Of a DNA stretch of 36,198 nt, positions 4,788 to 26,914 are shown in pieces (positions within the stretch are counted from its first letter, which is position 1; every line of letters begins with the position of its first letter). The stretch is taken from positions 1 to 36,198 of the IMG/VR virus record IMGVR_UViG_3300020406_000011, one strand, 5' to 3'. This DNA is from a virus. The notes beneath the pieces were generated by a model. The model ran no database searches. It was not told the origin of the DNA and saw only the letters and a list, made by a program, of their open reading frames with translations. A program made the position numbers and the translations under genes.

Positions 4788-5540
4788 ATGTCTAGACTTT
4801 TAGTTAACAATATCAGAGCATACTCTGGTTCGGTAATAACAATCCCTTCGACAACTAAATTGTCATTGGGAGGAAAAACTATTGGTGAAAACTCTGTTCT
4901 ACCTTCAGCGTCAGGACAGAGTAATAAGGCAATAGGTAGTGATGGTTCATCAATCATATACAACACTTACGGTGCTAGTGGCATGCAAGTGTTTACATCA
5001 TCTGGAACATATGTAAAAACAACAGGAACTAATCAGATCATGGTACGTCTGGTAGCCGCAGGAGGCGGTGGATCTGGACACTGTGAAGCTGGTGGAGCTG
5101 GTGGATTCTCGGAGAAAATATTAAATGTTACTGGTGTGGGTTCAGTATCTGTTGTTATTGGAACTGGAGGAACAGGTACATACTATTCTGGAAGATCTGG
5201 ACAAGGATCTTCCTCCTCCTTTGGTGCTTTCCTCTCAGCAACTGGAGGAGATGGTGCGAACCAGTCCTATCAACACGCAGGAGGACTTGGAGGTATTGGA
5301 GCTGGTGGAGATGTTAATATGTACGGTGGCGGTGGATCCGCACATGGTAGAATAAATGGTGGAGGAGGATATAGTTTCTTTGGTGGTTCTGCTGCCAGAG
5401 GTCATCCTCGTGGTGGTGACTATTCAAGAAACCATCAAGATCGTTGTGCACCTGGCTCAGGTGGAGCAAACGGATGGTTTAGATCCTACTTAGGACCTGA
5501 AGGTAAACATGGTATGGTTGTAGTTTGGGAGTTTAAATAA
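4788..5540 (+). CDS. Glycine-rich tail-tip adhesin-like protein, paralog 1
   Basis: This 250-residue protein is the first of three tandem paralogs. The N-terminal ~50 residues contain the shared pattern LLVNNIRAYSG...IPS...LSLGG, probably an attachment module. It is followed by a GTYVK...IMVRLVAAGGGG strand typical of glycine-rich phage proteins. The C-terminal 160 residues are dominated by Gly-rich segments with shared landmarks GTYYSG, SSFGAF, YQHAGGLGG, NMYGGGG and SFFGG, ending in VVVWEF. Alternating variable and Gly-rich stretches resemble adhesins of the T-even gp38 type, which use poly-glycine II packing, although direct homology cannot be shown here. It starts three bases after the fibre gene, so it may sit at the fibre tip. 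A receptor-binding role is inferred. Confidence 0.75.
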   Translation: MSRLLVNNIRAYSGSVITIPSTTKLSLGGKTIGENSVLPSASGQSNKAIGSDGSSIIYNTYGASGMQVFTSSGTYVKTTGTNQIMVRLVAAGGGGSGHCEAGGAGGFSEKILNVTGVGSVSVVIGTGGTGTYYSGRSGQGSSSSFGAFLSATGGDGANQSYQHAGGLGGIGAGGDVNMYGGGGSAHGRINGGGGYSFFGGSAARGHPRGGDYSRNHQDRCAPGSGGANGWFRSYLGPEGKHGMVVVWEFK

Positions 5541-6301
5541 TGAGTATATTAAAAGTAAATGAACTGAGACCTCAATCGGGTTCAAACGTAACTATCCAAT
5601 CAGGATATACATTGAGACTAGGAAGTAAAAACCTAGACTCTAGTAGTGTCATGCCATCACCTAGTGGACAGAATGGTAAGATACTTGTAAGTAATGGATC
5701 ATCTCGTAACTGGGAAGATCATGGTGCTGTCTCTATGTCAGTATGGACATCTAGTGGTACATGGTCACGACCTACTGGAGTAAAGAGAATTCTTGTAAGA
5801 ATAGCAGGAGCTGGTGGAGCAGGATCAGGAGTTGGAGAAGCAGGGGGAGCAGGAGGATATGCTGAAGAAATTATTGATGTAACAGGTGTATCATCTATAT
5901 CTGTTACTGTGGGACAACCTGGCTCATGGGGTGGTACATACTACTCTGGTGGTGCTGCTAACGGTGGTTCTACATCATTCGGAAACTATATGAGTGCTAG
6001 TGGTGGTAACGGTGCTAACCGTAACTATCAGCACTGTGGAGGACTACCTGGCGTAGGGTCTGGTGGAAACCTGAATATATATGGTGGAGGAGGATCAGGT
6101 CACGAATACTGGTCTGGTTATCCTGGTGGTGGTTCTTTCTTTGGAGGAGCAGGAGCAACAGGACACCCTCGTGGTGGTCACTATGCTTACAACCATCAGT
6201 ACAGAGCTGCTGTAGGAAGCGGTGGTTCACCTGGTTATCATACATCTCGTAGAGGTGCTCGTGGTATGGCGGGTGTTGTATGTGTCTGGAACTTTAGATA
6301 A
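5540..6301 (+). CDS. Glycine-rich tail-tip adhesin-like protein, paralog 2
   Basis: This 253-residue paralog of the flanking genes starts in a TAATG overlap with paralog 1, so translation is probably coupled. The N-terminus MSILKVNELRPQSGSNVTIQSGY keeps the shared module (given here only for its pattern SILKVNELRPQSG). The middle strand reads GTWSRPTGVKRILVRIAGAGG. The C-terminal Gly-rich part keeps GTYYSGG, TSFGNYMSASGG, YQHCGGLPGVGSGG, NIYGGGG and SFFGG, and ends GMAGVVCVWNF. Between these landmarks the loops differ from paralogs 1 and 3, as expected for receptor-facing loops. Function is inferred from the Gly-rich architecture and position; a structural filler protein is the main alternative. 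Confidence 0.75.
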   Translation: MSILKVNELRPQSGSNVTIQSGYTLRLGSKNLDSSSVMPSPSGQNGKILVSNGSSRNWEDHGAVSMSVWTSSGTWSRPTGVKRILVRIAGAGGAGSGVGEAGGAGGYAEEIIDVTGVSSISVTVGQPGSWGGTYYSGGAANGGSTSFGNYMSASGGNGANRNYQHCGGLPGVGSGGNLNIYGGGGSGHEYWSGYPGGGSFFGGAGATGHPRGGHYAYNHQYRAAVGSGGSPGYHTSRRGARGMAGVVCVWNFR

Positions 6302-6303
6302 CT

Positions 6304-7059
6304 ATGTCAAACGTTTACACAAATGAACTCGACGCTGCGTCGGGACAATCTATATTAATACCCAGTGGATACAACCTATCCTTGGGTGGTACCATATTGA
6401 ATAGTTCTTCTATACCTCCTGATCCAGAGGATGAGGGAGGAAAATATCTAGTCAGTAATAATACTGACGCTGTGTTTAGACATATAGGTCCTACAAGTAT
6501 ATCAACATTCTTTAACAGTGGTACATGGTCACGACCAGATGGTATCAACAGAGTCATTGTACGTGTTACAGGTGGTGGTGGCGGTGGTTCAGGTCACTCT
6601 GAATCAGGTGGTGCGGCTGGATATGCTGAAGAGGTTATTGACGTTCGAGGTATTTCTAGTGTATACTGTACAGTAGGTAATGGTTCTGGAAGTGGTACAT
6701 ACTACTCTGGAAATGGTGGCGGGGGCGGTACCTCATCATTCGGAAACTATGTTTCTGCTAGTGGTGGATTAGGTGCGAACCAAACATATCAACACTGCGG
6801 TGGTCTTGGGGGACTAGGATCAGGCGGTAACCTCAACATTTATGGTGGAGGTGGCATCGGACACATGAACTACATGGGTCACGGTGGAGGATCTTTCTTT
6901 GGATCAGGAACTATGAGTGCTCATGGTAACTGGAACCAAGGAACAAGAAGTTCTCAGTTGAAAGCTGCTCGTGGTTCGGGTGGTACATCAGGATATCAGC
7001 GTTCTTATCAGGGTGCTAACGGTATGGCTGGTGCAGTTATTATTTTAGAGTTTGTCTAA
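6304..7059 (+). CDS. Glycine-rich tail-tip adhesin-like protein, paralog 3
   Basis: This 251-residue protein is the third copy. Its N-terminus is the most diverged (VYTNELDAASGQSILIPSGY), but the architecture is unchanged: N-terminal module, GTWSRPDGINRVIVRV strand, then Gly-rich segments with GTYYSG, TSSFGNYVSASGG, YQHCGGLGGLGSGG, NIYGGGG and SFFGS, ending GMAGAVIILEF. It begins two bases after paralog 2. The shared TWSRP-x-G motif in copies 2 and 3, where copy 1 has TYVKTTG, suggests 2 and 3 are the closer pair. The likely role is an alternative or complementary receptor-binding tip; all three could be in one virion or form a heteromer. Confidence 0.75.
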   Translation: MSNVYTNELDAASGQSILIPSGYNLSLGGTILNSSSIPPDPEDEGGKYLVSNNTDAVFRHIGPTSISTFFNSGTWSRPDGINRVIVRVTGGGGGGSGHSESGGAAGYAEEVIDVRGISSVYCTVGNGSGSGTYYSGNGGGGGTSSFGNYVSASGGLGANQTYQHCGGLGGLGSGGNLNIYGGGGIGHMNYMGHGGGSFFGSGTMSAHGNWNQGTRSSQLKAARGSGGTSGYQRSYQGANGMAGAVIILEFV

Positions 7060-7062
7060 ATA
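7056..7062 (+). promoter_or_regulatory. Putative late promoter box CTAAATA
   Basis: CTAAATA overlaps the stop codon of adhesin 3 and lies 21 bases before the ATG at 7084. The same CTAAATA core recurs upstream of several other genes in this window, which supports a late-promoter role. If real, it could drive the whole halogenase/oxygenase cassette. Confidence 0.5.
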
Positions 7063-7083
7063 GAATTACGGATTCAAAGTAAC

Positions 7084-7599
7084 ATGGCTAAAAGTTGTTT
7101 AGTAGACTATCGTGGATTCATCACCGATGTGGTTGAGCCTGGTGAAGAGTTCGAGGTCTATCAAGGGGATGACTCCCCAATCAAATGGGTAACTTGCGAC
7201 GATGATAACGTCACAAACCTATGGGTATTATGTAATGGTGAGTTTTTTGACAGTGCTGACAGACTGGAAAGAAACCAACAGATGAAAAGAAAAGTTGAGT
7301 ATGGTTCTGTAGAAGAACAACTCGACATGATGTATTGGGATCAAGTAAATGGTACAACCACATGGAAAGATCACGTAGCATCAGTAAAAACTAACATTGT
7401 AAATCAGACAACTGCAGATGCAGATGCCTCGTTCTACGATGGCAAAAAAGAATTTGAGATGGGTACTGAAGAAGCACCCTCTTGGAATGGACTACCCGCT
7501 GCTAAGAGAGCAAAGGTAACTAAGTTCAAGAACGAAACAGTTTACGAAACAGGATGGGAATTAGACCCAACTACTAACAGACCTAAGTACGTAGGATAA
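7084..7599 (+). CDS. XkdW-like small phage protein
   Basis: This 171-residue acidic protein has an N-terminal ~60 residues that look like a small beta domain (LVDYRGFITDVVEPGEEFEVYQGD...WVTCDDDNVTNLWVLCNGEF). A central motif YGSVEEQLDMMYWDQVNGTTTWKDHVASVKT resembles the EEQLD-x-x-YWD-x-x-N-G-T pattern I associate with XkdW-like or tail-fibre-assembly-like phage proteins (pattern: EEQLDMMYWDQVNGTTTW). The C-terminus is Lys- and Glu-rich. It sits between the adhesins and the halogenases, so an assembly or fibre-accessory role is plausible. It is not similar to the halogenases; function unproven. Confidence 0.6.
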   Translation: MAKSCLVDYRGFITDVVEPGEEFEVYQGDDSPIKWVTCDDDNVTNLWVLCNGEFFDSADRLERNQQMKRKVEYGSVEEQLDMMYWDQVNGTTTWKDHVASVKTNIVNQTTADADASFYDGKKEFEMGTEEAPSWNGLPAAKRAKVTKFKNETVYETGWELDPTTNRPKYVG

Positions 7600-7609
7600 A
7601 ACTTACATT

Positions 7610-9184
7610 ATGAAAATTGAAGAAATTTGTATAGTCGGTGGCGGTACCGCAGGATGGATGACCGCTGCTACTCTGATTAAATCATTTCCAAAAAAGAAGA
7701 TTACTCTAATTGAGTCGGATGATATACCTACCATAGGTGTGGGTGAGTCAACCACTCAATTTTTTCGTGACTGGACACTTGAAATGAATCTACCAGATAA
7801 CTGGATGGATGAGTGTGAAGCGACATATAAGTACAGTGTAAAATTTAAAAACTTTAGTGAGTATGGTGACTTCCATTATCCTTTCTGGGATGGTGGTGCT
7901 CCTAAGAATAGTAGTTGTGATATATTAGAATGGTTCTTCCATTATAGAGCAACAAATGGTAATCCAGAGGTATCGTTTGCTGAGTGGATGACACCATATT
8001 GGAGAATTATAGAAGAGAACAAAGTTGTTATTAATGACTTTGAATCATTCAAAGGATATAAAAACGCAGGGTATCATCTTGACGCAGTTAAGTTTTCTAA
8101 TATGCTTAAGAGAGACTTCTGTCTCCCACGTGGTGTAGTACATCATATTGACACTATCAAAGATTGTATCAAAGATACTGATGGTAATATAGCAAGTCTT
8201 GTAGGTGAGAAAGACATCTATCTTGCTGATATGTTTGTAGACTGTACTGGATTTAGATCACAGATACTAGGTGGTATGATGGGTATAGAGTGGGATGAGT
8301 TTCCATTCCTTATCAACAACAAAGCATGGACAGTTAGGACAGCATATACAGATAAGTCAACAGAGATGACTAACCATACACAGTGTACAGCACTAGACAA
8401 TGGTTGGGTATGGCACGTGCCACTCACTACTAGAATAGGTACAGGATATAATTTCTCTGACAAGTTTATATCAGAAGAAGATGCGTTAGCAGAGTTTAAA
8501 GAATTTCTAGGTGATAGACCATTGCTATCTGAACCACGTTTAGTAAAATGGAAGAACGGTGTAGCAAAGAAAATCTGGACTAAGAACGTTGTAGGTATAG
8601 GATTATCAGCAGGATTTATAGAACCATTAGAATCTAATGGACTACTATCTGTACATAATTTTGCTGTGTTCTTAGCAGATGCTTTGTCAACACATGAGGG
8701 TAAAATCAATACTCTCATCAGAGCACAGTTCAATCGTAGATGTAGAAAACATATGGGACAGTTTTCTCACTTCGTTGGTAATCATTTCATGATGACAACA
8801 AAAGATAACAGTGAGTATTGGAGATATATTTCAGAGAACATTAATTATATGGATGATAAGGCAGAGAAAGAGGCAGAGACACATGGTGGGTATCCACTAG
8901 ATGATTTCCCATTGAAAATGGATGAGTTAACAAATTTTAACTTTAGCAATTTAGCGGGAAACTCCTTTATTTGTGCGGGTCATATGCATTCTCCACTTAC
9001 ACCATGGACATGTGATTATATGGAAAAGAGAGGAAACGTTGACATCTCCTCCTTCCGAGTGCTATCATCAGGGTATACACTTGACCCCAATATACATGCT
9101 GAAATAGATCAGTTCCCTACACCAGAGGAATTTTACTATGAAGATGTTGCGGGTATAGATTTCCATCATTCATTACATGGTTAG
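7610..9184 (+). CDS. Flavin-dependent halogenase, tryptophan halogenase family (copy A)
   Basis: This 524-residue protein has the N-terminal FAD-binding motif GGGTAGW (residues 10-16) and an IGVGEST segment at 42-48. The family's catalytic lysine is present as K74 in ATYKYSVKF, matching K79 of PrnA by eye. The halogenase motif WxWx[IV]P is W266-V-W268-H-V-P271, with Val where Ile is usual. The FxxPxxSxG motif is FIEPLESNG, with the catalytic glutamate as E341. Length fits PrnA/RebH-type enzymes (about 530). Such enzymes use FADH2, O2 and halide to make HOX and transfer halogen to an electron-rich substrate. No flavin reductase is seen in this window, so FADH2 would have to come from elsewhere. 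Cyanophage enzymes of this family are known (VirX1 from phage Syn10 is a halogenase). Substrate unknown; free Trp, a peptide or another aromatic are all possible. Confidence 0.9.
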   Translation: MKIEEICIVGGGTAGWMTAATLIKSFPKKKITLIESDDIPTIGVGESTTQFFRDWTLEMNLPDNWMDECEATYKYSVKFKNFSEYGDFHYPFWDGGAPKNSSCDILEWFFHYRATNGNPEVSFAEWMTPYWRIIEENKVVINDFESFKGYKNAGYHLDAVKFSNMLKRDFCLPRGVVHHIDTIKDCIKDTDGNIASLVGEKDIYLADMFVDCTGFRSQILGGMMGIEWDEFPFLINNKAWTVRTAYTDKSTEMTNHTQCTALDNGWVWHVPLTTRIGTGYNFSDKFISEEDALAEFKEFLGDRPLLSEPRLVKWKNGVAKKIWTKNVVGIGLSAGFIEPLESNGLLSVHNFAVFLADALSTHEGKINTLIRAQFNRRCRKHMGQFSHFVGNHFMMTTKDNSEYWRYISENINYMDDKAEKEAETHGGYPLDDFPLKMDELTNFNFSNLAGNSFICAGHMHSPLTPWTCDYMEKRGNVDISSFRVLSSGYTLDPNIHAEIDQFPTPEEFYYEDVAGIDFHHSLHG

Positions 9185-10730
9185 TATTTGTATACTTGGC
9201 GGTGGTTCATCTGGATGGATGACAGCTGCTGCTTTTGCTAAAGTATTTCCACATTATAAAATCAGATTGATAGAGGATCCAACTCAGAAACCTTTAAGTG
9301 TTGGAGAGTCTACTCTTGGTCATTTCAATCGTTACCTAGATTGTCTAGGTATAAAAGATAAAGATTGGATGAAAGATTGTAATGCCACATATAAACTATC
9401 AATTCAATTTACTAACTGGCAGAATAAGGGTGACGTATTTCAATATCCCTTTGGGGATTACGATTATACTAACGGTGACTTTGTAACATGGTATTATCTA
9501 CATCATACATTTCCTACCCTATTTCCTGATACAACATACTGTGAGTTCTATAACCCTGTTAGTTACCTAGCAAGTACAAATAAGATCGTAGACAACAATG
9601 ACTATGTACGTAATTTTAAAAGGCACTGGGATACATCATATCATTTTGATGCTACAAAATTTGGTGGTTGGTTACGAGATAATCTCTGTCAAACTGTAGA
9701 GCATACTAAAGCAAAAATTGTATCAACATTCTATGATGATAAGTGTAATGTCAAGGGAGTTGTAGATGAGTATGGTAATGACTATAAGGCAGATTATTTT
9801 ATAGACTGTACTGGATTTGGATCTCTGCTCCTAGAGAAGTCTATGGATCAAAGTTTTATAGAGTTCCCTAATCTACCAAATGATTCTGCTGTAGTCACAC
9901 ACGTACCATATAATGACAAACAGACAGAAATGAAAAACCAGACAGATGGTTATGCCATGGATAATGGTTGGTGTTGGACTATACCACTGTGGGAAAATAT
10001 TGGAAAGGGATATGTATATTCTAGTAAGTTTATTGATAAGTTTAAGGCAGAGGAAGAGTTTAGAAAACACCTAGATTTGAATTGCTTCACATCTAAGGAA
10101 TGGGATGGTAAAGTAGAACATATAAAATTTAGACATGGTAAGAGAAGACTAGGATGGTGTCAGAATGTTATTGGTATTGGTCTATCATATGGTTTCTTAG
10201 AACCATTAGAATCTACTGGTTTGTTTACTACACATGAGAACATACTTAGATTAGTAGATACGTTCCAACGTAGAGACGGACATATTACACAGATAGACAT
10301 AGATGGGTACAATCATGCTGTACACTATGAACTAGAAGCAATGAAAGAGTTTGTAGAAATGCACTACTATCTTTCTCCTAGAAATGATACAGAATATTGG
10401 AGACACTATAGTAACAAGTCACCACTATCTTATGAACACATGTTTGATAAGGTAGTTAGATCACCTCGTCTATATCAAGAGTTTATACATTGTTGGAACA
10501 TATCTAACGCACCTAAAGATATGGGTGGACTACCATATATCGCAGCAGGGTTAGGATATCATCCTATCACTAAGACTGACTATGACTATAAGATGGCAAC
10601 CGAACAGGTTTCAATAGCATATCTTCATGATGTTAAAGACAGACATTTCCATTATCGAAAATCTGTGCTAAAATACTTAAAGGATCAACCGTCACACTAC
10701 GAGTATTTGAGAGAAAGGATATATGTTTAA
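9177..10730 (+). CDS. Flavin-dependent halogenase, tryptophan halogenase family (copy B)
   Basis: This 517-residue second halogenase starts inside an 8-base overlap (ATGGTTAG) with copy A. It has GGGSSGW at residues 8-14, SVGEST, catalytic lysine K73 in ATYKLSIQF, the classical W265-C-W267-T-I-P270 motif, and FLEPLESTG with glutamate E345. It is clearly related to copy A but strongly diverged, so the duplication is old or the two were acquired separately. Copy B is closer to the canonical motif (Ile in WxWxIP; EPLEST rather than EPLESN). Active-site residues known to be needed for chlorination in PrnA are present in both, so both are probably active. They may act on different positions or substrates. 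Confidence 0.9.
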   Translation: MVSICILGGGSSGWMTAAAFAKVFPHYKIRLIEDPTQKPLSVGESTLGHFNRYLDCLGIKDKDWMKDCNATYKLSIQFTNWQNKGDVFQYPFGDYDYTNGDFVTWYYLHHTFPTLFPDTTYCEFYNPVSYLASTNKIVDNNDYVRNFKRHWDTSYHFDATKFGGWLRDNLCQTVEHTKAKIVSTFYDDKCNVKGVVDEYGNDYKADYFIDCTGFGSLLLEKSMDQSFIEFPNLPNDSAVVTHVPYNDKQTEMKNQTDGYAMDNGWCWTIPLWENIGKGYVYSSKFIDKFKAEEEFRKHLDLNCFTSKEWDGKVEHIKFRHGKRRLGWCQNVIGIGLSYGFLEPLESTGLFTTHENILRLVDTFQRRDGHITQIDIDGYNHAVHYELEAMKEFVEMHYYLSPRNDTEYWRHYSNKSPLSYEHMFDKVVRSPRLYQEFIHCWNISNAPKDMGGLPYIAAGLGYHPITKTDYDYKMATEQVSIAYLHDVKDRHFHYRKSVLKYLKDQPSHYEYLRERIYV

Positions 10731-11520
10731 AAAGAAAAAACCAAGAGCAAGATTTTTTAGTCTACATCCTGGCGTACATACTCTACATCCTATTACTAAA
10801 GCAGCAGAACTTGATAGGGATTGGGTTAGTAAAGAAAGAGATGATTATAAAGATAGATTAGGTAAGTGCCCTTTCAATAAAGTATTACAAGGAGAACAAC
10901 ATCAAGCTAATTCTATAGGTCGTTGTCCTGCTATAAATTCTATTATGAGGACAGGTTATATTGTGTATGCTCCTGCTGACTTTAAGGTTCATACAAATGG
11001 AGACAAACATACTATACTGTTCACTACCACTCCTTTTAATCCACCATCATCAGATTACGTTGTACTCCATGAGACAGATGTAACAAAATGGTTGATGGAT
11101 TCTAGTAAGGATACTACAATAGATCAAGTAGTAAAAATCAATACTACTTGGCGAGTACAGGCAGATGATGATGTCGTATTTCTCCAGACAAAAGTACCTT
11201 TCGTTAATGAAACTCGCTTCTCAGCAGTATCTGGTATTCTCGATCCACGTACTGCTTATGAAGTCAATGTCCAACTCTTCTGGCACGTGATGGAGGGTGA
11301 TGTAACAATTAAAGCAGGGACACCTCTCTGCTGTTATGTACCCATGTCACGTAGGATGTTAGAAGACTTAGACATGTCTATTGATGTAGCAACTCCTACA
11401 GATTATAGACTTGAAGAAGAGTTCATGTACACTGCGTACAATCAGTTTCCTGAGAATGTTAACACCACTCAGAGACAAATCAAAACTAATAAAATATTAA
11501 AGAAGTATTGGAATGGGTGA
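10723..11520 (+). CDS. Hypothetical protein, possibly DUF6065-like
   Basis: This 265-residue protein overlaps copy B by 8 bases (ATGTTTAA). It starts with a very basic stretch (MFKKKKPRARF). It has a CP-A-I motif in SIGRCPAINSIMRTGYIVYAP (pattern: CPAINSIMRTGYIVYAPADF) and later SGILDPRTAYEVNVQLFWHV followed by EGDVTIKAGTPLCCYVP. That layout, with CPA...GY/W...PADF and a beta strand ending in AGTPLCxYVP, reminds me of the DUF6065 family, members of which occur next to tryptophan halogenases; this assignment is from memory and uncertain. No catalytic motif is obvious; a beta-barrel or cupin-like fold is plausible. Its position fixed between halogenases and oxygenases suggests a partner protein. 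Confidence 0.55.
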   Translation: MFKKKKPRARFFSLHPGVHTLHPITKAAELDRDWVSKERDDYKDRLGKCPFNKVLQGEQHQANSIGRCPAINSIMRTGYIVYAPADFKVHTNGDKHTILFTTTPFNPPSSDYVVLHETDVTKWLMDSSKDTTIDQVVKINTTWRVQADDDVVFLQTKVPFVNETRFSAVSGILDPRTAYEVNVQLFWHVMEGDVTIKAGTPLCCYVPMSRRMLEDLDMSIDVATPTDYRLEEEFMYTAYNQFPENVNTTQRQIKTNKILKKYWNG

Positions 11521-12124
11521 CGTATCAATCCCTTTGTTTTCTGTCCCTGTAGTTAAGGGTAGAATAGTACCAGATGAGTATGCTGATGCTGCCACTGAGA
11601 CTGTGTTAAATCGTATCTTTCTTGATAGGAAGTTAGGTCAGTTTGAAGGTGAGTCAGGTTTATCTACAGGTCCTGATGAGATGAAAATACATGAAAAAGA
11701 AGAACTTAAGTGGTTAATGAAACCACTAGAATTTGCTGTCAAAGAATACTGGGTATACACTCTGGGATATAAGAAGATGGCAGATATTAAATGTAGAGAT
11801 GGTTGGGCAAACAAACACTTCGCAGGAGACACTACAGTAGAACATAGTCACAATGATGGATGGTGGGGTAGTTGTCAGATATCATGTGTATATTATTTTA
11901 GAAAACCAAAAGGATCTAGCAATATAAAATTCTGTAATCCAAATGATTATATCTTACGTAACCAACCTTATGCTATGATGAAGGGGATACATACTATAGC
12001 AAGTGAACTTCCTGCTGAACAATACGAGTATGTTCTTTTCCCATCATGGGTGAGACATAGAGTAGATCCTAGCACTGTAGGACCTCGTATAGCAATGTCA
12101 TTTAATTACTATGGATATGAGTAG
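11513..12124 (+). CDS. Putative Fe(II)/2OG-dependent oxygenase
   Basis: This 203-residue protein overlaps the previous gene by 8 bases (ATGGGTGA). The core reads TVEHSHNDGWWGSCQISCVYYF, containing H113-N-D115 as a possible HxD metal pair (H111 adjacent). Downstream FPSWVRHRVDPSTVGPRIAMSF supplies the distal H182 and the 2OG-anchoring R192. The spacing, strand pattern and [FP]SW-x-xH...R-x-x-x-SFN ending match the small phage 2OG-FeII oxygenase families. The substrate is unknown; these enzymes hydroxylate or otherwise oxidise proteins, nucleic acids or small molecules using O2 and 2-oxoglutarate. Which His is the true ligand cannot be decided from the sequence alone. Confidence 0.7.
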   Translation: MGDVSIPLFSVPVVKGRIVPDEYADAATETVLNRIFLDRKLGQFEGESGLSTGPDEMKIHEKEELKWLMKPLEFAVKEYWVYTLGYKKMADIKCRDGWANKHFAGDTTVEHSHNDGWWGSCQISCVYYFRKPKGSSNIKFCNPNDYILRNQPYAMMKGIHTIASELPAEQYEYVLFPSWVRHRVDPSTVGPRIAMSFNYYGYE

Positions 12125-12923
12125 ACTCCCTATATCTAAGAGGGTATATCAAGAGACAAAACCTATTTTCAAACCAGTGAGTGAGTGGTCATACACTTAC
12201 CACAGTAAGTATTGGATTGTCAGAGATATATTTAAAGAAGGTGGTCTAGATTTATTCAAGGACATCGCTAGTTCTTATCCTATTGTAGATGTTAACAATC
12301 ACGATGAGGACTTTGATCACAATCCTTTCATGGTACATCATCTACCATACTGGATCACACAACCTCTATGTGAGGCAGTGAGAGAATTTGTAATTAGAGA
12401 ACACTTTGGTCAAGGACCTGAAATGGAACTGATAGATGAACGTCTGTCAGAGTGGGGTAACGTATACTTTAAGGACGAGTGTCGTCCTCTAGTAAATTCA
12501 TATATCCCACACGTAGACTTTCCTGATGATGAGGGATGGATAGGAAACTTATGGTTAACAGAACATGAAGAAGGAAAAACAACAACAAACATCTATGACT
12601 ATAAAGGAGAGATTGACCAAGGACGGTACGATTTCCAACTCGATCCACGTCACCAACGGTACAAAGAGTGGCACAACTGGGTTGGTGACGGTAGAAACCA
12701 CGTCGACGGCTTCCAGAATTTTGATGGCAAAACTGCCTTCCACTGGGGATTCCGACAAGTAGGCAAGGCACCATGCGAACATGGCACTATGACAATTTAC
12801 AATGGCAACATACCACATTGCCCTTTTGTCGATGATAGTGTAGAATATAGATGGTCTCATTGCTTTGGTTTTAAATACAAATCATTAGCAAAGGTCTTTA
12901 AAGCACAAGAAGTTCCTGTTTAA
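12111..12923 (+). CDS. Putative Fe(II)/2OG-dependent oxygenase with HVD motif
   Basis: This 270-residue protein (263 if started at the in-frame ATG 12117, which gives the same 8-base ATGAGTAG overlap seen at neighbouring junctions) contains NSYIPHVDFPDDEGWIGNLW, with the HxD pair H134/D136 numbered from 12111. The distal His is H236 in GNIPHCPF, and R247 in VEYRWSHCFGF is a candidate 2OG-binding arginine. The middle (about 155-225) has a long, aromatic and His-rich insertion unlike the compact neighbours, and the DNA there is visibly richer in GC. It may belong to a DUF6445-like branch of the fold, but I am not certain. Confidence 0.65.
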   Translation: MDMSRLPISKRVYQETKPIFKPVSEWSYTYHSKYWIVRDIFKEGGLDLFKDIASSYPIVDVNNHDEDFDHNPFMVHHLPYWITQPLCEAVREFVIREHFGQGPEMELIDERLSEWGNVYFKDECRPLVNSYIPHVDFPDDEGWIGNLWLTEHEEGKTTTNIYDYKGEIDQGRYDFQLDPRHQRYKEWHNWVGDGRNHVDGFQNFDGKTAFHWGFRQVGKAPCEHGTMTIYNGNIPHCPFVDDSVEYRWSHCFGFKYKSLAKVFKAQEVPV

Positions 12924-13483
12924 TGTTTCTAGAAGAAATATTTCCTACCCCCATCTGGGGATTTGATCTTGATCTTGATGTAGACAGTATAAAATACTGG
13001 TGCTACGGATGTATGAAAGAGAATCCTGGCAGAGTTATATCTAACGTTGGTGGGTGGCAATCAGAAGATTATAGAGAGTTCGGTCAAACACCATTGACTG
13101 AACTTGTGTTGTATATTGTCAGAGAATCTCACAACATAGCAAAGGACATAGGTATACCTGAAGGTGATCGTTGGGTGGAGAATCTATGGGTCAATATCAA
13201 TCCAAAGTATTCTTACAATCAGGTACATGTACACCCAGAAGCAAGACTATCTGGTGTGTTCTATGTGTCAGCTCCTGAGAACTCAGGTAATATATGTTTT
13301 ACTAGATCTAATGGTTATTCTTTAGGAACGGTTGCTCCTAACTCTACTAGATACAGTAGTTGTGAATGGTGTTATCCACCAAAGAAAAACAGACTAATCA
13401 TATTTCCTGCTTGGCAGGAACATCACGTGAAAGCGAATCTATCTGATGAAGATAGAATATCAATATCATTCAATATAAGATGA
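12923..13483 (+). CDS. 2OG-Fe(II) oxygenase, 2OG-FeII_Oxy_5/TIGR02466-like
   Basis: This 186-residue protein overlaps the previous stop as TAATG. It shows the signature of the small phage oxygenase family: an N-terminal FPTPIW, then WVNINPKYSYNQVHVHPEA (H102, H104), LSGVFYV, and a C-terminal LIIFPAWQEHHVKANLSD with distal H167/H168 and R178 in DRISISFNIR. This arrangement matches the 2OG-FeII_Oxy_5 type often seen in marine T4-like phages and bacteria. The substrate is not predictable. It is the best-recognised oxygenase of the cassette and supports reading its less typical neighbours as the same fold. Confidence 0.85.
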   Translation: MFLEEIFPTPIWGFDLDLDVDSIKYWCYGCMKENPGRVISNVGGWQSEDYREFGQTPLTELVLYIVRESHNIAKDIGIPEGDRWVENLWVNINPKYSYNQVHVHPEARLSGVFYVSAPENSGNICFTRSNGYSLGTVAPNSTRYSSCEWCYPPKKNRLIIFPAWQEHHVKANLSDEDRISISFNIR

Positions 13484-14100
13484 GAGAGTTTAGAAACTTT
13501 TTACCCACCTCGTTAGCAAACGAGTTACATGATAAGATGACATCTAATGAGTTCCCTTGGTTCTGGTTAGATGATGTTACTGTATCTCCAGAGGAACGAT
13601 CAGAAGTTCCTGAGTTTTACAGGAGTCAACCTGGCATGCACCATACACCATATCGTGATGGTAACATGAGTACATGGTACGGTGACTTTAGTTTCTTCTT
13701 TCATTACATCGTTGATGTTATGAATCTAGATTACAAAGACTGGTATCTATCCAGACTAAGATGTGGATTAAACTTCCCTACATTCAGAGAAGAACATTTC
13801 CTACACAATCAACCACACGTTGACTTTCCTGAGTCATCAGGTGTTGATCATTACACATGCCTATACTACGTAAATAATTCCGATGGTCCGACAGTCGTAT
13901 TTGAAGAGAAAAAAGAATCGCCCAAGTATACGATTAAGTATAAATGCGATCCCGAAAAAAATAAGTTATTCGTTTTTGACGGTAAGCACTATCATGCTAG
14001 CTCATGTCCTCAACATCATGACGCACGGTTAGCAATAACTATCAACATTGTAAAACGTCAACCTATTCAGAATGTTAAGCCGTTTCTTCGCGTCGCGTAA
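13480..14100 (+). CDS. 2OG-Fe(II) oxygenase (HxD...H...R)
   Basis: This 206-residue protein starts in an ATGA overlap. The core LHNQPHVDFPESSGVDHYTC gives H113/D115. Then YYVNNSDGPTVVFEE is the usual jelly-roll strand pair, NKLFVFDGKHYHASSCP contains the distal His (H172, or H170), and R183 in DARLAITINI should bind 2-oxoglutarate. All four expected residues are present, so it is probably active. This C-terminal pattern (FDG-x-x-YHAS...R-x-x-x-x-INI) is shared by many phage oxygenases of prolyl-hydroxylase-like fold. Bases 13880-13980 use unusual CG-containing codons compared with the surroundings. Confidence 0.8.
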   Translation: MREFRNFLPTSLANELHDKMTSNEFPWFWLDDVTVSPEERSEVPEFYRSQPGMHHTPYRDGNMSTWYGDFSFFFHYIVDVMNLDYKDWYLSRLRCGLNFPTFREEHFLHNQPHVDFPESSGVDHYTCLYYVNNSDGPTVVFEEKKESPKYTIKYKCDPEKNKLFVFDGKHYHASSCPQHHDARLAITINIVKRQPIQNVKPFLRVA

Positions 14101-14764
14101 CCTATACTGCGATGATGGAGTGGTTCACATTCGCAATTTTTTAGACGACCCAACTCAATACCTATCATGGAAAAGTGTAGAGCATTGTCTTACACGTGAT
14201 GATATATTCTGGGAACTCATAGACAAGAAAGGACATAAGAAGAATCTTCAACAGTACAAACCATACTGGTCTCCTGTACCATGTCAGGATAAGAACACAA
14301 TATATGAACACATACAAAGCAAAGAAAGTTTTGTCATCACAGGTTACAGTAAAGTAAATAGAAAAGCAAATGACCTGTGTATAGAGATAGAGAGATCTCT
14401 AGATGTTAATGTAGATATACATGTGTATGGAGGAAAAGGTGAGGCACCTTCATTCAAGACACATTGTGATCACTTCTCTAATTTTATTATACAGTCTGTA
14501 GGAGAAACATATTGGAAAGTATATAAGAACAAGCAAACATCCTTACTTGCTTGTAGGAATGACAAACCATTAAACTATGATATAATGGATATTGAATGGG
14601 AGGGTATTTTAAAGCCTGGCGATCTCCTCTATATACCTGATAGAGCATACCATCAAGCTCTACCAGATAGACCTAGGTTGTCCATGAGTATTCCTTGTGT
14701 ACCAACTGTATTAAACCCTGAGTTTTATGACAGACGTAACTACAAAATACAAACCGATAATTAA
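14072..14764 (+). CDS. JmjC/cupin-like Fe(II)-dependent oxygenase
   Basis: This 230-residue protein overlaps the previous gene by 29 bases in another frame. It contains SFKTHCDHFSNFIIQSVGET with H131-C-D133 as the HxD pair, followed by YWKVYKN, and a distal H194 in GDLLYIPDRAYHQALP. The order HxDxxxxxxxQ...G-x-x-x-W-x-x-Y...L-x-P-G-D-x-L-Y-I-P-x-x-x-x-H is that of JmjC/ribosomal-oxygenase-like (cupin-type) proteins, distinct from the 2OG-FeII_Oxy neighbours. Known relatives hydroxylate ribosomal proteins or other proteins, which makes a protein substrate attractive, but this is inferred. Short for the family, it lacks an obvious C-terminal winged-helix domain. Confidence 0.75.
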   Translation: MLSRFFASRNLYCDDGVVHIRNFLDDPTQYLSWKSVEHCLTRDDIFWELIDKKGHKKNLQQYKPYWSPVPCQDKNTIYEHIQSKESFVITGYSKVNRKANDLCIEIERSLDVNVDIHVYGGKGEAPSFKTHCDHFSNFIIQSVGETYWKVYKNKQTSLLACRNDKPLNYDIMDIEWEGILKPGDLLYIPDRAYHQALPDRPRLSMSIPCVPTVLNPEFYDRRNYKIQTDN

Positions 14765-15344
14765 AGTTGTTAAGAACTGCGTTCCTATTCCATTAGTCGA
14801 TTACTTGTACACAGAGTTCAGACTGATGAGGGATGCCCTACTTGCCATGGGAAGCAATGAGGGTTATAATGACCCTACAGTTCCTAACACTTTCTCTTGG
14901 TATTCACCCCTGTGCTTTGAAGCATTGGGTCTACATTTGAAACCTCAAGTGGAAAAAATACTGAAGACAAGTGTCGAACCAACCTACTCTTATGGACGCA
15001 TATATACTGAAGGAAGTGAACTCGTCAGGCATACTGACAGACGTTCCTCAGAGATAGCAGTCAATCTGTCTATTGCTCGTGACATCAAGTGGGATCTAAA
15101 TTTTTTATGGGAGGAGCAAACTCTACATATTGACTTAGAACCAGGTGATGTGGTAATATACAGTGGATCAATTCCACACTGGAGAGAGAAGTATACAGGC
15201 AAAGAGCATATCAATGCTTTCATGCAGTATGTCTATGCTGATGGTCTACATAAAGATTTAAAGTATGACACACGTCCTTACCTCGCCACACCTTTTGCTC
15301 TCGCACAGCAAGATATACAAGATGAAGTAAAAAATTATGTCTGA
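14727..15344 (+). CDS. 2OG-Fe(II) oxygenase, prolyl-4-hydroxylase-like
   Basis: This 205-residue protein overlaps the JmjC-like gene by 38 bases. TYSYGRIYTEGSELVRHTDR contains H102-T-D104, preceded by the usual Y-x-x-G-x-x-x-x-x-H pattern. Strand residues EIAVNLSI and LDLEPGDVVIYSGSIPHWRE (read as LEPGDVVIYSG...PHWRE) give the distal H151. A lysine or arginine shortly after (K156 or nearby) could anchor 2OG, as in prolyl 4-hydroxylases. It is the last oxygenase of the cassette and ends in an 8-base overlap with the next gene. Substrate unknown; prolyl hydroxylation of a protein is one possibility. Confidence 0.75.
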   Translation: MTDVTTKYKPIIKVVKNCVPIPLVDYLYTEFRLMRDALLAMGSNEGYNDPTVPNTFSWYSPLCFEALGLHLKPQVEKILKTSVEPTYSYGRIYTEGSELVRHTDRRSSEIAVNLSIARDIKWDLNFLWEEQTLHIDLEPGDVVIYSGSIPHWREKYTGKEHINAFMQYVYADGLHKDLKYDTRPYLATPFALAQQDIQDEVKNYV

Positions 15345-15642
15345 CGCACCAGAAACAGCAGGAATGGGTACCATTGAGAATGCTCCAAAAGAATGGACAT
15401 TTGATATGGTATGGGAAGACTTCGTTGCTCAGTTAACTGCAGCACGAGAAGAAGTTAGAGAGAAGGAGGAGGAGTTAGATAAGAACTCTAGTCTCATGAC
15501 TCGTATTGATCTAACTGATCTTAATGACGCTCGCACTAAAGTGAACCGTCTAGAAGGTGCTTGTGAAGCACTTGATATTATACGCACCACCGTCCTAGGT
15601 GTCGAATCTAAAATCCAACGTACTGAGGAAACTACAGCATGA
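15337..15642 (+). CDS. Small coiled-coil protein
   Basis: This 101-residue protein overlaps the oxygenase by 8 bases (ATGTCTGA). A short N-terminus (SDAPETAGMGTIENAPKEW) precedes a highly charged heptad-like helix (about residues 35-65, with REEVREKEEELDKNSSL) and a second helix to the end. There are no catalytic motifs or membrane segments. Cyanophage genomes often carry such small helical proteins between fibre and neck genes; I do not recognise a function. The pairing with the next, also helical, gene suggests they interact. Confidence 0.6.
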   Translation: MSDAPETAGMGTIENAPKEWTFDMVWEDFVAQLTAAREEVREKEEELDKNSSLMTRIDLTDLNDARTKVNRLEGACEALDIIRTTVLGVESKIQRTEETTA

Positions 15643-15839: not shown

Positions 15840-16127
15840 TTAGTCTACAAATTTAAGGAACTTACTTGATATCAAGTCATGTTTCTCATCAAACTCTAAA
15901 CGTCTACGGGCATGGGTCTTATCTCCTTCAACAATGAGATAGTACCTTTTACCGTAGATGTTTTTTGTTATGCCTATAGCAACGATAGGTCTATCGTCAT
16001 ATTTGTCGCCAACGTCAAATGGAATAGTTTCTGAAGTACCATTGAAGGGCAGCTCGGTTCTACTCCAGAGGTGTTCTCTGAGTCTATATTCACCTGTTGG
16101 TGCTTCTCTGTCTCTAAGTCCAGCCAT
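15840..16127 (-). CDS. Small hypothetical protein, only minus-strand gene
   Basis: This 95-residue protein begins MAGLRDREAPTGEYRLREHL, with the ATG at 16127 reading leftwards. It has a beta-rich centre (RPIVAIGITKNIYGKRYYLI) and a basic C-terminal half (THARRRLEFDE). Composition is protein-like, and no competing frame on the + strand is convincing. Its stop abuts the end of the coiled-coil gene and its start lies 42 bases from the divergent giant gene. A possible sigma70-type promoter (TTTACT, 18-base spacer, TATAGT, reading left at 16189-16160) sits upstream. The opposite direction hints at earlier or separate expression. Function unknown. Confidence 0.65.
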   Translation of the reverse strand: MAGLRDREAPTGEYRLREHLWSRTELPFNGTSETIPFDVGDKYDDRPIVAIGITKNIYGKRYYLIVEGDKTHARRRLEFDEKHDLISSKFLKFVD

Positions 16128-16159: not shown

Positions 16160-16189
16160 ACTATAATCAATGGCAACCCTTTTAGTAAA
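16160..16189 (-). promoter_or_regulatory. Possible sigma70-like promoter for minus-strand gene
   Basis: Read leftwards, TTTACT (16189-16184) and TATAGT (16165-16160) are separated by 18 bases, and the start would fall about 25 bases before the minus-strand ATG. The match is partial and the -35 part lies inside the divergent gene, so this is only a candidate. Confidence 0.25.
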
Positions 16190-19100
16190 GGTAGCAGGTT
16201 CTATGACTCTTGATGGTGCTCAAGCACTAATAATGGGTCAGCATAGTTATTTAGAATTTGTAAGATCTTTCCCTTCATTTAGAACTATCCAGTTTACAGC
16301 ACCATCAAAGGATCAATCATCTATAGATGAGATCAGAAGTTTGGCGTATGTTCATGGTGCTACCTATGATAAAGAGTATGAAATAGATCCAGTGCTAGGT
16401 GGTGAGACAGCAATAGCAGAGTGGGAGACAGATATAATTGAAACTAACGCAGAAGAAGTAGAGGGAACAAGAAATACAAGAATTATTACATCAAGCGGTG
16501 GTGGAACAATATATGTAAAGGTAGCAAACTATGGTGGTAACTTAAGATTTCAGTTGTCATCTACACAGGGTGGTGTCTACAGTCGTATCGCAACCTATAG
16601 TGGTTTCGTACAAGGTGGTACATATACCTTTGATCAGAGTGACTCATCTAACACAGGTCATAGACTAGCATTTTCTTTAACACCTGATGGTACACATAAA
16701 AATGGTACACAGTACACATATAATGTGACAACAGCGGGTACACCTGGTTCATCTGGTGCGTATACTCGTATCACAGTAGATAGTGTTACAGCATCTGTAC
16801 TATACTGGTACAACGTATCTAACTCTGACTACGGTGCTTATGATGATAGTCCATTACGTTATGGTGCTATTTGTATACATGACTTTTGGCATCTAGATCG
16901 TATCTCAAAACAAAGCAGGAGTTTTTTAAATGGAGTATATAACACTACGGAAGAAGCTGACGGTGTTGACGTTTATGTGCTTGATACTGGAATTAGAGGA
17001 GCTTCGAGACCGACTGGAACCAACGTAGGACTACATCCAGAGTTATTTGATGTAGACAATAACGCTGACCTCAATGGTTTATCAGAGCAACAGTCATACA
17101 GAGTATATGAGGTAACAGGATATAGTTCAGGATATACTGTCAATGGTGTAGCTAACAGTAATGAAGATGACAACGGACACGGTACATACTGTGCTAACCT
17201 CATTGGTGGTATCAAATCAGGTGTCGCACACAAGACAAAATTCTATGCTCTGAAATGTTTTAGTTCAGGTGGTGGTGGAACTTTGTCAGGTATCATGAAC
17301 GCATATCAGGCAGTCATCAACCACAATGACAGTGGAAATGCCAGCTACAAAGGTAATACTAGACCCGCAGTTATCAACGCATCCTTTGGTTCTACACAAC
17401 CTAGTGGTTCTTTCCCGTATGTTGAACTAAACGAGGCAGGAACTGACGCAGGATTTGACGTAGAACTATATGACGAAACAGAGAAAGACGTAGTAGATGC
17501 TAATATTGTACTCGTTAGATCAGCGGGTAACGGATTTAAAGACTCTAGTGACAGTTTCTTAGGACCTCTACAAGGTAGATACCAACCAGGTACTAGATCA
17601 GCAGGATATCCAGACGGTGACGTAAACACAGTTGACACAAATATCGCGTCTATCTCTGTAGGTGCTACAGACTACAATGATTTCTGGGCAGACTTCTCTA
17701 ACTATGGTTCTGCTGTAACAGTTACAGCACCAGGTCAACATATAACTGTACCAAACTATAACTGGACAACTAACACCCCATATACATCAGTGGGTAATTA
17801 TAGTGTTATACAAGGTACATCGTTCTCAGGTCCTATCACAGCTGGTGTAGTATCTCAGTTCATAGCAGCTAACAGTTATACACTTAGTACAGGTACACTA
17901 CCAGTCTTATGTAAAAACTGGATCAGAGGATCAGGAGATCCTGGCAACTTCGCTGCTACAAGTACAACAGCGTACCCTGCTAATACAGCTCACGAATATA
18001 AGTTACCTACAGACCCATTCGCAGTCAGTTCAGGTAGTAATGTAATCAAAGTATACTATCCTTCCCTGTATTCATCTGCCTTCTTGAACAAGATAGGTAA
18101 GAAACTACAGCTAAGAATAGCAGCTACCAGTTTATCAATAGGTGGTCTTAATATTAAAGAAGTATCTGGCACATGGTATGGTATCACAGGACAGGATGCT
18201 GCTAATAACTATATCGAGATAACTGTACTTAACAGTGGTACAAGTAATGAAGTGGGTGGTGGAGATAATAACTATGCTTGCGTAATATCTGACACACATG
18301 AGGGAACTGACGGACCTACATTTGGTAATGTCACACTATATGCTGAGTTAGACTCAGAGGAAGCAGGACATACAGGTCGTACTATTCAACAGATACCAGT
18401 AGATACAGGTGTTGACTTTGACTATAGTCAGACAGGTGCTTTGATTAGTAAGGTCAGAGGACTGTTCACTAGATACATCTCTAAGACTATCACATGGTTC
18501 TATAACGGTAATATAAGTTCAACAGGAGGACAAGGTGTTACCAATGGAAGAATATATTGGGATACAACAGGAGTCACAGCTGGTAGTTACTTTTATCAAT
18601 GCTCTGCTCACAATGACATGTATGGCACAATCACTTTATCTGGATCAGGTGGTACTGCCAAAAGATATTGGAACGTAACCGCTTCAGGTAGTAGCAACTA
18701 TACTTTAACAGAACAGAATGTCAATCCTGTAGTCAATACATATAACTTTGCTGTTACTGCTAGTGGTAGTCAAGACTATATCATATCTGGTTCTGATAGG
18801 ACTGGTTCAATCAGTGGTAATGACCCTGCTATTGTAGTACAAGTTGGCGATACAATAAACTTTAATATGAATGCGGGTGGCAGTCACCCAACTGTTTTCA
18901 AGACTGTACAGGGAACTGGTTCAAGTAATCAAGTATCAACAGGTACATACACAGGTGGTGGAGCATCAGCATCTGGTACTGTCAAGTGGATCACAACTGG
19001 TGTACCGATTGGCGTATACTACTATCAGTGTACTGCTCACAACAATATGTACGGTACTATCACTGTACAGGCAAACAGCACAGCAGGACAGAGTGGTGAT

Positions 19101-22100
19101 GATGTAGGTATCAATGCCACACCAGGTGACATTCTAGTATTTGACACTACAGCAGGATCTAGTCATCCATTCTATATCAAGACAGCACAGGGAACTGGTA
19201 GTGGTAATCAAGTAACTACAGGTAAGATAGGTGGTGACGGATTCGCTCACAATACTTCTATCAGTAAAGACATAGGTGTTGATGAGTTCAAGAGTTATGC
19301 TAATGAGACATTTAACGCAGGAGAAGCATATACTCTTTCTGGTGATGATATATCAGGTACAGGATTAACATTCAATACATCAAGTGGTGTTCTATCAGGT
19401 ACAGTTACATCATCCTATCAGGATACATTCTTTGACATCGTAGTTACAGAGGATAGTTCTGGAGAGGTAAAAAACTATAACTTCCATACACTAGGTACAG
19501 GTGTTGTAATTACAATCGGAGATCAACCTTCGGATGCGACAATAGAAGCAGGAGCAGGAACTAACGCACAGTTCGGTCCTCTTAACGCAAGTATATCTGA
19601 CAGTTCTACTATCAACTACCAGTGGCAGTATAGTACAGGTGGTGCTTGGACAAGTATTAGTAGTCTATCAGGACATAGTGGAGAGACAACAGATACACTT
19701 ACAGTAGATGATGACTACTCATACAACGGATGGCAATACCGATGCGTTTGTAGTTCTAATACAGCAGCTGCTGATACAACATCTAACTCTGCTACATTAA
19801 CTGTAACTAGAGTAGTAACGATATCACAGCAACCACAAAACCAATCAGCTGTATCACCAGCTGCTGCTACATTTAATGTAACTGCTAGTACTGCTGATGG
19901 AGCATCATTATCATACGGATGGGACAAGTCAGAAGATAATGTAGTATGGCATCAAATACCAGGTGCTACAAGTTCAGCATATACAACTACAGCTACCACA
20001 TATGACAGTGGTGGTACACCTCCCGCATCTTTTGATGCTGATAACGGTGACTACTATAGAGTCAGAGTCAATGCTATCGGTGCTTCAGAGATAACATCTA
20101 CGAGTGCCCAGTTATCAGTTACAAGAACTATAACAGTAGACACACACCCTACCAATACTACAGGAGCAGTAGGTGGTACAGCAGACTTCACAGTTGCTGC
20201 TAGTCTTTCTGATGGAGACAGTGCTGACCTTAACTACCTATGGCAAGTATCACTTGACGATGGACAAAACTGGTCAGGTCTTTCAGGAGCAACTACAGCA
20301 TCATATACAACACCTACACTTTCAGCTCAGTTTGATGAGTATCAGTATAGATGTTTAATATCTGCGGCTGGTGCTAATAATACATTCTCTAATGCTGCTA
20401 CCTTACAGGTAGAGTCAGTATCAGTTAGCGTAGTTTCTGATCCTAGTGACAGAACTATAAATGAGGGACAGGCAACAGGTTTCACAGCAGTTGGTACAGT
20501 AACAACTTCTGCTATCAGTGCGTTACTCAACTCTTCCTTTGGAGTTGGTAATTGGACAACACCAGCTGGTGGTGGTGCTTCTGCTAAGGCAGAGACAGCT
20601 GCTGACCCAGAGCTATACAACTCTATATGGTCTAGTCATACACCCTCAGTCCAGTATCAGTGGCAAAGAAAAGATGGTGATGAAACTATCACTGTCACAG
20701 TGGGCACAGATACAGTTAATGGACAGGCAACAGGAGTATTCTATTTCAATGGCGTAGAGAAACCTAATAACTTTGAATTTGAAAGAGGAGCAACATACTT
20801 ATTTGATCAATCAGATTCTTCTAACATTACTTGGAACACTCAATCTCACCCATTGATGTTTAGTACAACAGAGGATGGAGATCTAGTAGGAGGTGGACAA
20901 CACTATGATCCTACAACCACTGTCTACAGATTAGATGGTGTCATCAAAACTATGGCAGAGTACACTGCTCAGTTCTCTGGTGCTACAGTTAGAACTGTAA
21001 CGTTCACACCACCAAGTAACGCACCTAATACACTTTGGTATTGGTGTCACTTCCACACAGGTCAGGGTAACTCAATGATTATGACTGATGAGTGGAGTGA
21101 TATCAGTGGTGCTACAAGTCCTACTTACAACACAGGAACAGCAACTTACGCAGCAGATAATGCTGATCAGTATCGTTGTAAGCTTTCGGCTATAGGTGCT
21201 GACGCTGATGTATTCACCTCAGCCGCATTGCTAACCGTCTACAGGACTCATAGTGTAACTTCTGAACCAGTCAACGCAACAGGTAATGAAGGAGGCACAT
21301 CATCATATACTGTAGCGGGTACAACATCAAGTGGTTCACACACATATCAGTGGAGTAAATCTGATAACGGTGTTGACTACAATACTATACCAGGTGCGAC
21401 AAGTGCTACTTACACCACTCCTGCTCTAGTATTTGCTGATGATAATGACGACAGATATAAGTGTACACTAAGTCTAGTAGGTGCTCAGAGTGATATAGAA
21501 TCAACCTATGCTGTACAGACAGTTCTTAGAGTTATTTCTATTCAAACTCATCCACAACCACAAACTATTATTGAAGGACAGACAGCAACCTTTAGTATCG
21601 GTGCTTCTATTACCAGTGGAGCATTGAACTACCAGTGGCAGAAGTCAACTAACAGTGGTGCTGATTGGGCAAATATAAATGGTGCGACAAGTGCTAGTTA
21701 TACTACACCCACACAACCATTCCCAACAGTCAATAATGAATATCGTTGTGTATTATCTAACTCTAATGCTATATCAGTCACATCAAACTCTGCTACTATA
21801 ACTGTTAATGAGTCTGAGTTCGTAGAAGCAGCTGCTACTATGGAGGTCAATATAGACGACACAACTAACTTGACATTCAACAGACAACCTACATTTACAG
21901 CAGGAGCATTTATATCACAGTACGCAGGATCAACACATCAAGCATCGTTCTGGATAATCAAGAGAGTGGCAGATAACGCAACCGTATATGATACATCACA
22001 GATCACTGTACCTGACTTATCACAAGGTGATACTGGTAACTTGACTACGTTTACAGTACCAGCTGGTACACTTGATTTCGCAGTCACATACTCTGTACAA

Positions 22101-26756: not shown

Positions 26757-26914
26757 TGCAGTTCAGAGAAAACGACATACTAGAATTACTAGACCTATGT
26801 CGTACAACAGATAAATGTAGTGTCAAACTTATACGTAAGTTAGAAGACTACCTAGAACAATATTCTTGTGATGAGCAAAATTTGGCACGAACATATCCCC
26901 CCTTCCCTCTTTAA
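26756..26914 (+). CDS. Very small hypothetical ORF (52 aa)
   Basis: The ATG at 26756 overlaps the preceding stop codon (TAATG), a junction type used repeatedly here. It encodes MQFRENDILELLDLCRTTDK and continues to a TAA at 26912-26914, running 44 bases into the next gene in a different frame. Its charged, Leu-rich sequence (SVKLIRKLEDYLEQY) looks like a helical peptide and fills what would otherwise be a 110-base gap. Short length limits certainty. Confidence 0.55.
   Translation: MQFRENDILELLDLCRTTDKCSVKLIRKLEDYLEQYSCDEQNLARTYPPFPL

Follow-up and report, generated by a model that had tools for sequence, protein, structure and literature searches.

Linkage of VirX1-type halogenases and 2-oxoglutarate oxygenases with glycine-rich fibre tips in cyanophages: a putative tail-fibre-tip tailoring module

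The viral DNA considered here (IMG/VR record IMGVR_UViG_3300020406_000011; 36,198 bases, referred to throughout as the window) is an incomplete portion of the late region of a T4-like cyanophage, in which a large fibre gene, three glycine-rich fibre-tip genes, a cassette of predicted oxidative enzymes and the genes for neck, terminase, tail sheath and tail tube are found. The cassette occupies positions 7610-15344 and consists of nine + strand genes whose ends overlap or touch, as had been described in the first-pass annotation made from the sequence alone; the number of genes stands, while the extent of the unit does not, the three fibre-tip genes and a small gene lying just upstream (4788-7599) being part of the same block. 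A near-identity DNA search among phages returned no match to the window, and comparisons were made at the protein level instead; a relative on contig L291, from a single-cell genome of Prochlorococcus, carries a third cassette gene (g3) 92% identical to that of the window, which suggests Prochlorococcus as the host group.

The three tip genes, all on the + strand, encode paralogous glycine-rich tail-fibre-tip proteins of 250 (f2, 4788-5540; phrog_863, E 3.4e-45), 253 (f3, 5540-6301) and 251 amino acids (f4, 6304-7059; phrog_863, E 2.4e-47). The f3 protein matches the Gly_rich_2 profile (PF21722) with 24.9 bits, against a cut-off of 24.3, and the best match found by Foldseek in the PDB for its AlphaFold model (predicted local distance difference test score, pLDDT, 85) is the receptor-binding fibre of cyanophage Pam3 (7ypx, E 1.2e-8). 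The small gene sp0 (7084-7599, + strand; 171 amino acids, phrog_1787) always adjoins the tips, and its position and size are the grounds on which it is proposed to encode a fibre-assembly chaperone; the idea of sequence homology to a fibre chaperone of known structure was dropped, as the search of the PDB gave no sequence match.

The cassette opens with two predicted flavin-dependent halogenases of the VirX1 type, H1 (7610-9184, + strand) and H2 (9177-10730, + strand), both already recognised as halogenases in the first-pass annotation; they match the Trp_halogenase profile (PF04820) with E-values of 8.9e-86 and 4.6e-99, corresponding to 289 and 333 bits against a curated cut-off of 21, and VirX1 itself (6qgm) with 3.6e-83 and 1e-128, respectively. 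The sequence motifs of the family are intact, namely GxGxxG (GGGTAG and GGGSSG) and W-x-W-x-x-P (WVWHVP in H1, WCWTIP in H2); the catalytic lysine and glutamate (K74 and E338 in H1, K73 and E342 in H2) and the W-x-W tryptophans (W266/W268 and W265/W267) are conserved over 314-318 relatives. Some freshwater loci (such as L091, 18204-20742) have two more halogenase genes, paired on the opposite strand, at the end of the oxygenase row.

Six predicted Fe(II)- and 2-oxoglutarate (2OG)-dependent oxygenases, all on the + strand, complete the cassette, in agreement with the earlier count: g4 (11513-12124; PF13759, E 3.6e-12; H111-x-H113, H182, R192), g5 (12111-12923; phrog_1644, E 4.7e-20; H134-x-D136, H236, R247), g6 (12923-13483; PF13759, E 4.2e-23; H102-x-H104, H167, R178), g7 (13480-14100; phrog_274, E 1.8e-34; H113-x-D115, H172, R183), the JmjC oxygenase g8 (14072-14764; JmjC_2, PF08007, E 2.7e-18; H131-x-D133, H194, R202) and g9 (14727-15344; phrog_2954, E 1.1e-45; H102-x-D104, H151, R153). 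Assignment was by Pfam profile for g4, g6 and g8, and by PHROG family together with the motif for g5, g7 and g9. The H-x-D/H...H...R signature, comprising the iron ligands and the basic residue that binds 2OG, is conserved in all six, H-x-H replacing H-x-D in g4 and g6. The nearest solved relatives of g8 are NO66, MINA and the L16 arginine hydroxylase; NO66 and MINA are protein hydroxylases, and JmjC_2 relatives act on proteins. The PHROG names attached to three of these oxygenase-motif proteins, also in public records, are misleading and look wrong ('minor coat protein' for g5, 'DNA endonuclease V' for g7 and 'ferrochelatase' for g9). The dN/dS ratio (nonsynonymous to synonymous substitution rates) against relatives is 0.06-0.30 for every cassette gene for which it could be estimated, which indicates purifying selection; together with the conserved active-site residues, this upholds the earlier judgement that the cluster is not decaying.

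Between halogenases and oxygenases lies g3 (10723-11520, + strand), a member of phrog_7084 (E 3.7e-54) that the first-pass annotation had called a protein of uncertain, DUF6065-like family: it is indeed uncertain, but its likeness to DUF6065 is sub-threshold (14.7 bits against a gathering cut-off of 26.6, with two of 40 members matching, and weakly) and was set aside. The PDB fold matches listed for its AlphaFold model (pLDDT 88.5) are dUTPases, the best with an E-value of 5e-4; the resemblance is one of predicted fold only, and the identification of g3 as a dUTPase by sequence is unsupported, no profile or sequence match having been found.

The association of these genes was examined across phages by selecting contigs on the tip protein alone (cut-off 105 bits) and retaining those with at least 2.5 kb downstream of the tips, which gave 63 distinct loci. 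A halogenase and the small gene are present in 63/63 and exactly three tip copies in 56; at least one oxygenase was detected in 51, the number ranging from 0 to about 11. The constant core is thus tip, small gene and halogenase, the oxygenases being an elaboration; of the co-occurrence of halogenases, oxygenases and adhesins that the first-pass annotation had proposed as a check, the part concerning halogenase and tips holds throughout, whereas the oxygenase complement varies. The position of g3 is taken in 25 of these loci by another protein, u411, while g3 itself is found in 34, and both together in none; u411 (408-441 amino acids with paired cysteines; e.g. L121 13580-14815, L120 14954-16237, and L124) adjoins the small gene and the halogenase, and in several loci made up of tips, small gene, u411 and halogenase an oxygenase was not detected. 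Its sole family match is phrog_1458, where no function is assigned, and its reading as a peptidase-U32-like hydroxylase was a guess without support in Pfam, NCBIfam or the PDB. The upstream neighbour of the module is constant among the tip-selected loci and the downstream neighbour variable.

The same picture is obtained from other starting points. All of the 20 tip-bearing GenBank phage records also hold a halogenase, and tip and halogenase are adjacent in each of the ten GenBank phage maps examined. S-RIM44 carries all nine genes between fibre tips and neck, arranged as in the window, and this order recurs in dozens of viral contigs, which excludes chance. In the cyanophages syn9 and Syn10, two halogenases and g3 are accompanied by a more extended series of oxygenase-type genes; S-CREM1, Sf-FP1, Sf-FR1 and P-TIM40 carry variants of the block, those of S-CREM1 and P-TIM40 including tips, small gene, halogenase and oxygenases, and in S-WAM1, S-SZBM1 and P-RSM6 the block comprises tips, small gene, halogenase(s) and oxygenases, no g3 being recognised. 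Tips, small gene, halogenase(s), g3 and oxygenases are thus found together in marine and freshwater cyanophages, and the trio of tip, small gene and halogenase extends to phages of other types. A scan for g3 yielded 80 loci, 52 of them distinct, with a halogenase in 49 and a halogenase plus tip in 43; most loci lacking the full set are truncated contigs, the others being one architecture whose fibre genes lie on the opposite strand and three loci that have no halogenase at all. In the loci L172, L176 and L215, g3 is present in three tandem copies, a number matched by that of the neighbouring fibre-like proteins, which belong to another type that is not glycine-rich. When loci were selected by the halogenase with 3 kb on both sides, a glycine-rich open reading frame (ORF) lay within 6 kb in 38 of 47, as opposed to 0/22 terminase-centred control loci, a contrast that is indicative, the control being one region of related phages; many of these ORFs do not belong to the tip family, and some of those stop 29-43 bases short of the halogenase. 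A P-TIM40-type cassette in the same order was also met on a 188-kb contig of a Nonlabens xiamenensis assembly (NZ_RMVE01000006.1), which is probably a co-assembled cyanophage and not a prophage. In related phages, then, the genes stay together rather than being scattered, and their conserved co-location supports the earlier suggestion of a dedicated modification system acting as a unit, its function being predicted from sequence.

The alignment of 182 non-redundant halogenase-linked tips (median identity 45%, minimum 26%; f3 numbering) shows that, besides glycines, the columns of lowest entropy are E100, E109, Y135, S146, F147, H165 and H188, with no other non-glycine residue among them. E100 is conserved in 179/182, E109 in 177/182, Y135 in 179/181, and H165 and H188 each in 181/182; Y135 precedes F147 by 12 residues and is surrounded by variable positions in its loop. 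Among 13 tip relatives without a halogenase, E100 is found in 2/13, Y135 in 2/10, H165 in 2/11 and H188 in 4/10: F147 and other core residues are common to these relatives, whereas E100, Y135, H165 and H188 mostly are not. A nearly invariant tyrosine, two histidines and two glutamates set in variable loops suggest a conserved chemical role.

Linked as they are with fibre tips whose loops carry these invariant residues, the enzymes point to a target, which the first-pass annotation had held not to be revealed by the sequence: the block is probably, if by no means certainly, a tail-fibre-tip tailoring module whose enzymes modify the phage's own fibre tips. The glycine-rich ORFs near halogenase-selected loci, the match of the tip model to the Pam3 receptor-binding fibre and the constancy of the upstream neighbour of the module also speak in favour of this reading. 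More tentatively, and with doubt prevailing, it may be proposed that the tips carry halogenated (Cl, Br or I) and hydroxylated residues, that the conserved tyrosine is the site of halogenation and that the module is a widespread and dedicated one. Every step from linkage to substrate is one that we infer, including the tips as substrate, the residues modified, the halogen, the timing, the role of sp0 and the benefit. According to this proposal, the three paralogous proteins would form the distal, receptor-contacting tips of the fibres, sp0 would assist their folding, and modification would take place during synthesis and assembly; the halogenase(s), drawing on the host for reduced flavin, would introduce a halogen into one of the aromatic side chains of an exposed loop of the tip, with Tyr135 of f3 (codon 5942-5944), equivalent to Tyr133 of f2 (codon 5184-5186) and Tyr134 of f4 (codon 6703-6705), as first candidate. 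The oxygenases would hydroxylate tip side chains, His165, His188, His209 and Asn160 being weaker candidates, and modification might improve or alter the binding of the tip to the host surface, or make the tip more stable. That these enzyme classes can act on peptides and proteins is illustrated by MibH, which acts on a lanthipeptide, and by the collagen hydroxylases of mimivirus, neither of them linked to fibre tips. The active site of VirX1 is open and accepts large substrates (PMC8407142), which fits a protein substrate.

Several observations weigh against the tailoring of tips. Linkage is no proof of the identity of a substrate; the 105-bit cut-off that defines a tip was set after the gap in the scores had been seen; the linked tips are largely one subfamily, so that the invariance of their residues may be inherited, or may reflect a receptor or metal site; and tailoring leaves g3, with its fold reminiscent of nucleotide enzymes, unexplained. 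Moreover, E100, H165, H188 and Asn160 are kept in loci without a detected oxygenase: oxygenases as the sole explanation of the invariant histidines were therefore rejected, E100, H165 and H188 are not simply oxygenase targets, and the candidacy of His165, His188 and Asn160 for hydroxylation is weakened further. This persistence of E100, H165 and H188 is what would be expected if the invariant residues formed a receptor or metal site, for which two glutamates, two histidines and one tyrosine could serve as metal ligands, and if the enzymes travelled with the tips as a host-range package, acting elsewhere (on another fibre protein or on the host surface); the same linkage and the same conservation would then be observed. 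By itself, however, such a site explains neither why halogenases lie beside unrelated glycine-rich proteins in other phages nor why halogenase and tips never separate in the 63 loci, and we regard it as rather unlikely.

Halogenases are also found away from fibre tips, in S-B64 (beside recombination genes), in S-MbCM6 (beside psbA) and, in yet other surroundings, in a few further contigs, a distribution that counts against tips as the target and in favour of auxiliary metabolic genes, which would alter small molecules of the host (a halogenated antibiotic or signal) or drain 2OG and thereby steer nitrogen control. Published readings are of this kind, invoking antibiotic production or protection (PMC2984593, PMC9964418) and 2OG/NtcA (PMC3037559), and VirX1 takes many small aromatic compounds in vitro (PMC8407142). 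This explanation appears less probable still, given that the block sits among structural genes with fibre tips and the small gene as its constant partners, that a drain on 2OG requires neither a halogenase nor this gene order, and that other biosynthetic genes were not recognised in the vicinity of the cassette in annotated phages; genes of a pyrrolnitrin-type pathway, in particular, were not recognised among the scanned window genes or the annotated neighbours, although no specific search was made and the window is incomplete. The dUTPase-like predicted fold of g3, and the fact that some 2OG oxygenases act on DNA, might instead suggest nucleic acid of the phage or of the host as the target of the module, nucleotides being handled by g3. 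We consider this very improbable: at the sequence level g3 shows no homology to dUTPases, many modules lack it or have u411 instead, the genes with which the module is linked are those of fibre tips rather than of replication, and the relatives of its JmjC_2 member act on proteins.

As for the genes that surround the module, the cassette is followed in the window, as in close relatives, by g10 (15337-15642, + strand; phrog_20247), which encodes a protein of 101 amino acids, probably a coiled coil, and by a minus-strand ORF (15840-16127; 95 amino acids, phrog_26228) that has the same place in close relatives, in a region otherwise on the + strand. Between cassette and neck lies the gene (16170-22427) of a 2085-residue protein with a plastocyanin/azurin-type copper domain (PF00127, E 5.6e-7; residues about 884-967), for which H, C, H and M are candidate ligands (GGSHPT ... 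YQCTAHNNM), an odd feature in what is probably a fibre protein. Another 2OG-Fe(II) oxygenase (26868-27416; phrog_81, E 2.3e-26) is found apart from the cassette, between the small and large terminase genes, and was excluded from the module, to which nothing links it. The sequence CTAAATA occurs at 7056-7062, in the interval preceding sp0, as well as at several further gene boundaries, and is rarer than chance over the window as a whole; promoter-like hits and CTAAATA sites in the window were not clearly above chance, and were not used as evidence.

None of the enzyme families described here is new, and public genomes already contain the cassette; the novelty lies in the module and in its probable target. 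The closest known enzyme, the iodinating halogenase VirX1 of cyanophage Syn10 (PDB 6qgm), of which H2 is a probable orthologue, is active and has been described as a stand-alone biocatalyst (PMC8407142), whereas in Syn10 its gene belongs to an array with the gene order of the window (tips, small gene, two halogenases, g3, oxygenases); no discussion of the natural substrate of VirX1 or of the surrounding module was found in the open-access papers searched. The nine genes, three tips and small gene of S-RIM44 (NC_047734, 97743-118504) likewise precede the neck genes in the order of the window, but their proteins are roughly 30-60% identical to those of the window, the gene of the 2085-residue protein is absent between cassette and neck, and the annotation is gene by gene only, with partly misleading PHROG names. 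The Pam3 fibre protein gp24 (PDB 7ypx, PMC9608196) has a glycine-rich distal tip of the fold predicted for the tips of the window, and its chaperone gp25 (about 160 amino acids) is similar to sp0 in gene position and size; the distal loops of the Pam3 fibre are described as receptor-binding and hypervariable, and its chaperone as encoded by the next gene (PMC9608196). Pam3 differs in having one tip gene instead of three, in the lack of a halogenase found with its fibre in this analysis, and in the variability described for its loops, whereas five loop residues are nearly invariant in tips of the window type. Many divergent 2OG oxygenases per genome are also known from S-CREM1 (10) and S-SCSM1 (24) (PMC9964418, PMC9602691); these arrays, that of S-CREM1 lying inside a tip-linked module, have been read in the publications as host-metabolism genes, the link with fibre tips not being noted there. 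Cyanophage halogenases and multi-copy 2OG oxygenases have a long history of annotation in this sense, the roles proposed in print being antibiotic production or protection and host 2OG and nitrogen metabolism (PMC2984593, PMC9964418, PMC3037559, PMC9602691). A description of the module, or of tail-fibre modification with halogenases, was not found in the open-access literature searched.

The link of halogenases and 2OG oxygenases to attachment tips makes the question of their substrate directly testable. If the tailoring of fibre tips proves true, it would represent a new kind of viral protein modification, with the tips as the first halogenated virion proteins to be known and as the natural substrate of VirX1; the chemical tailoring of viral receptor-binding proteins would then have consequences for adsorption, host range and enzyme discovery.

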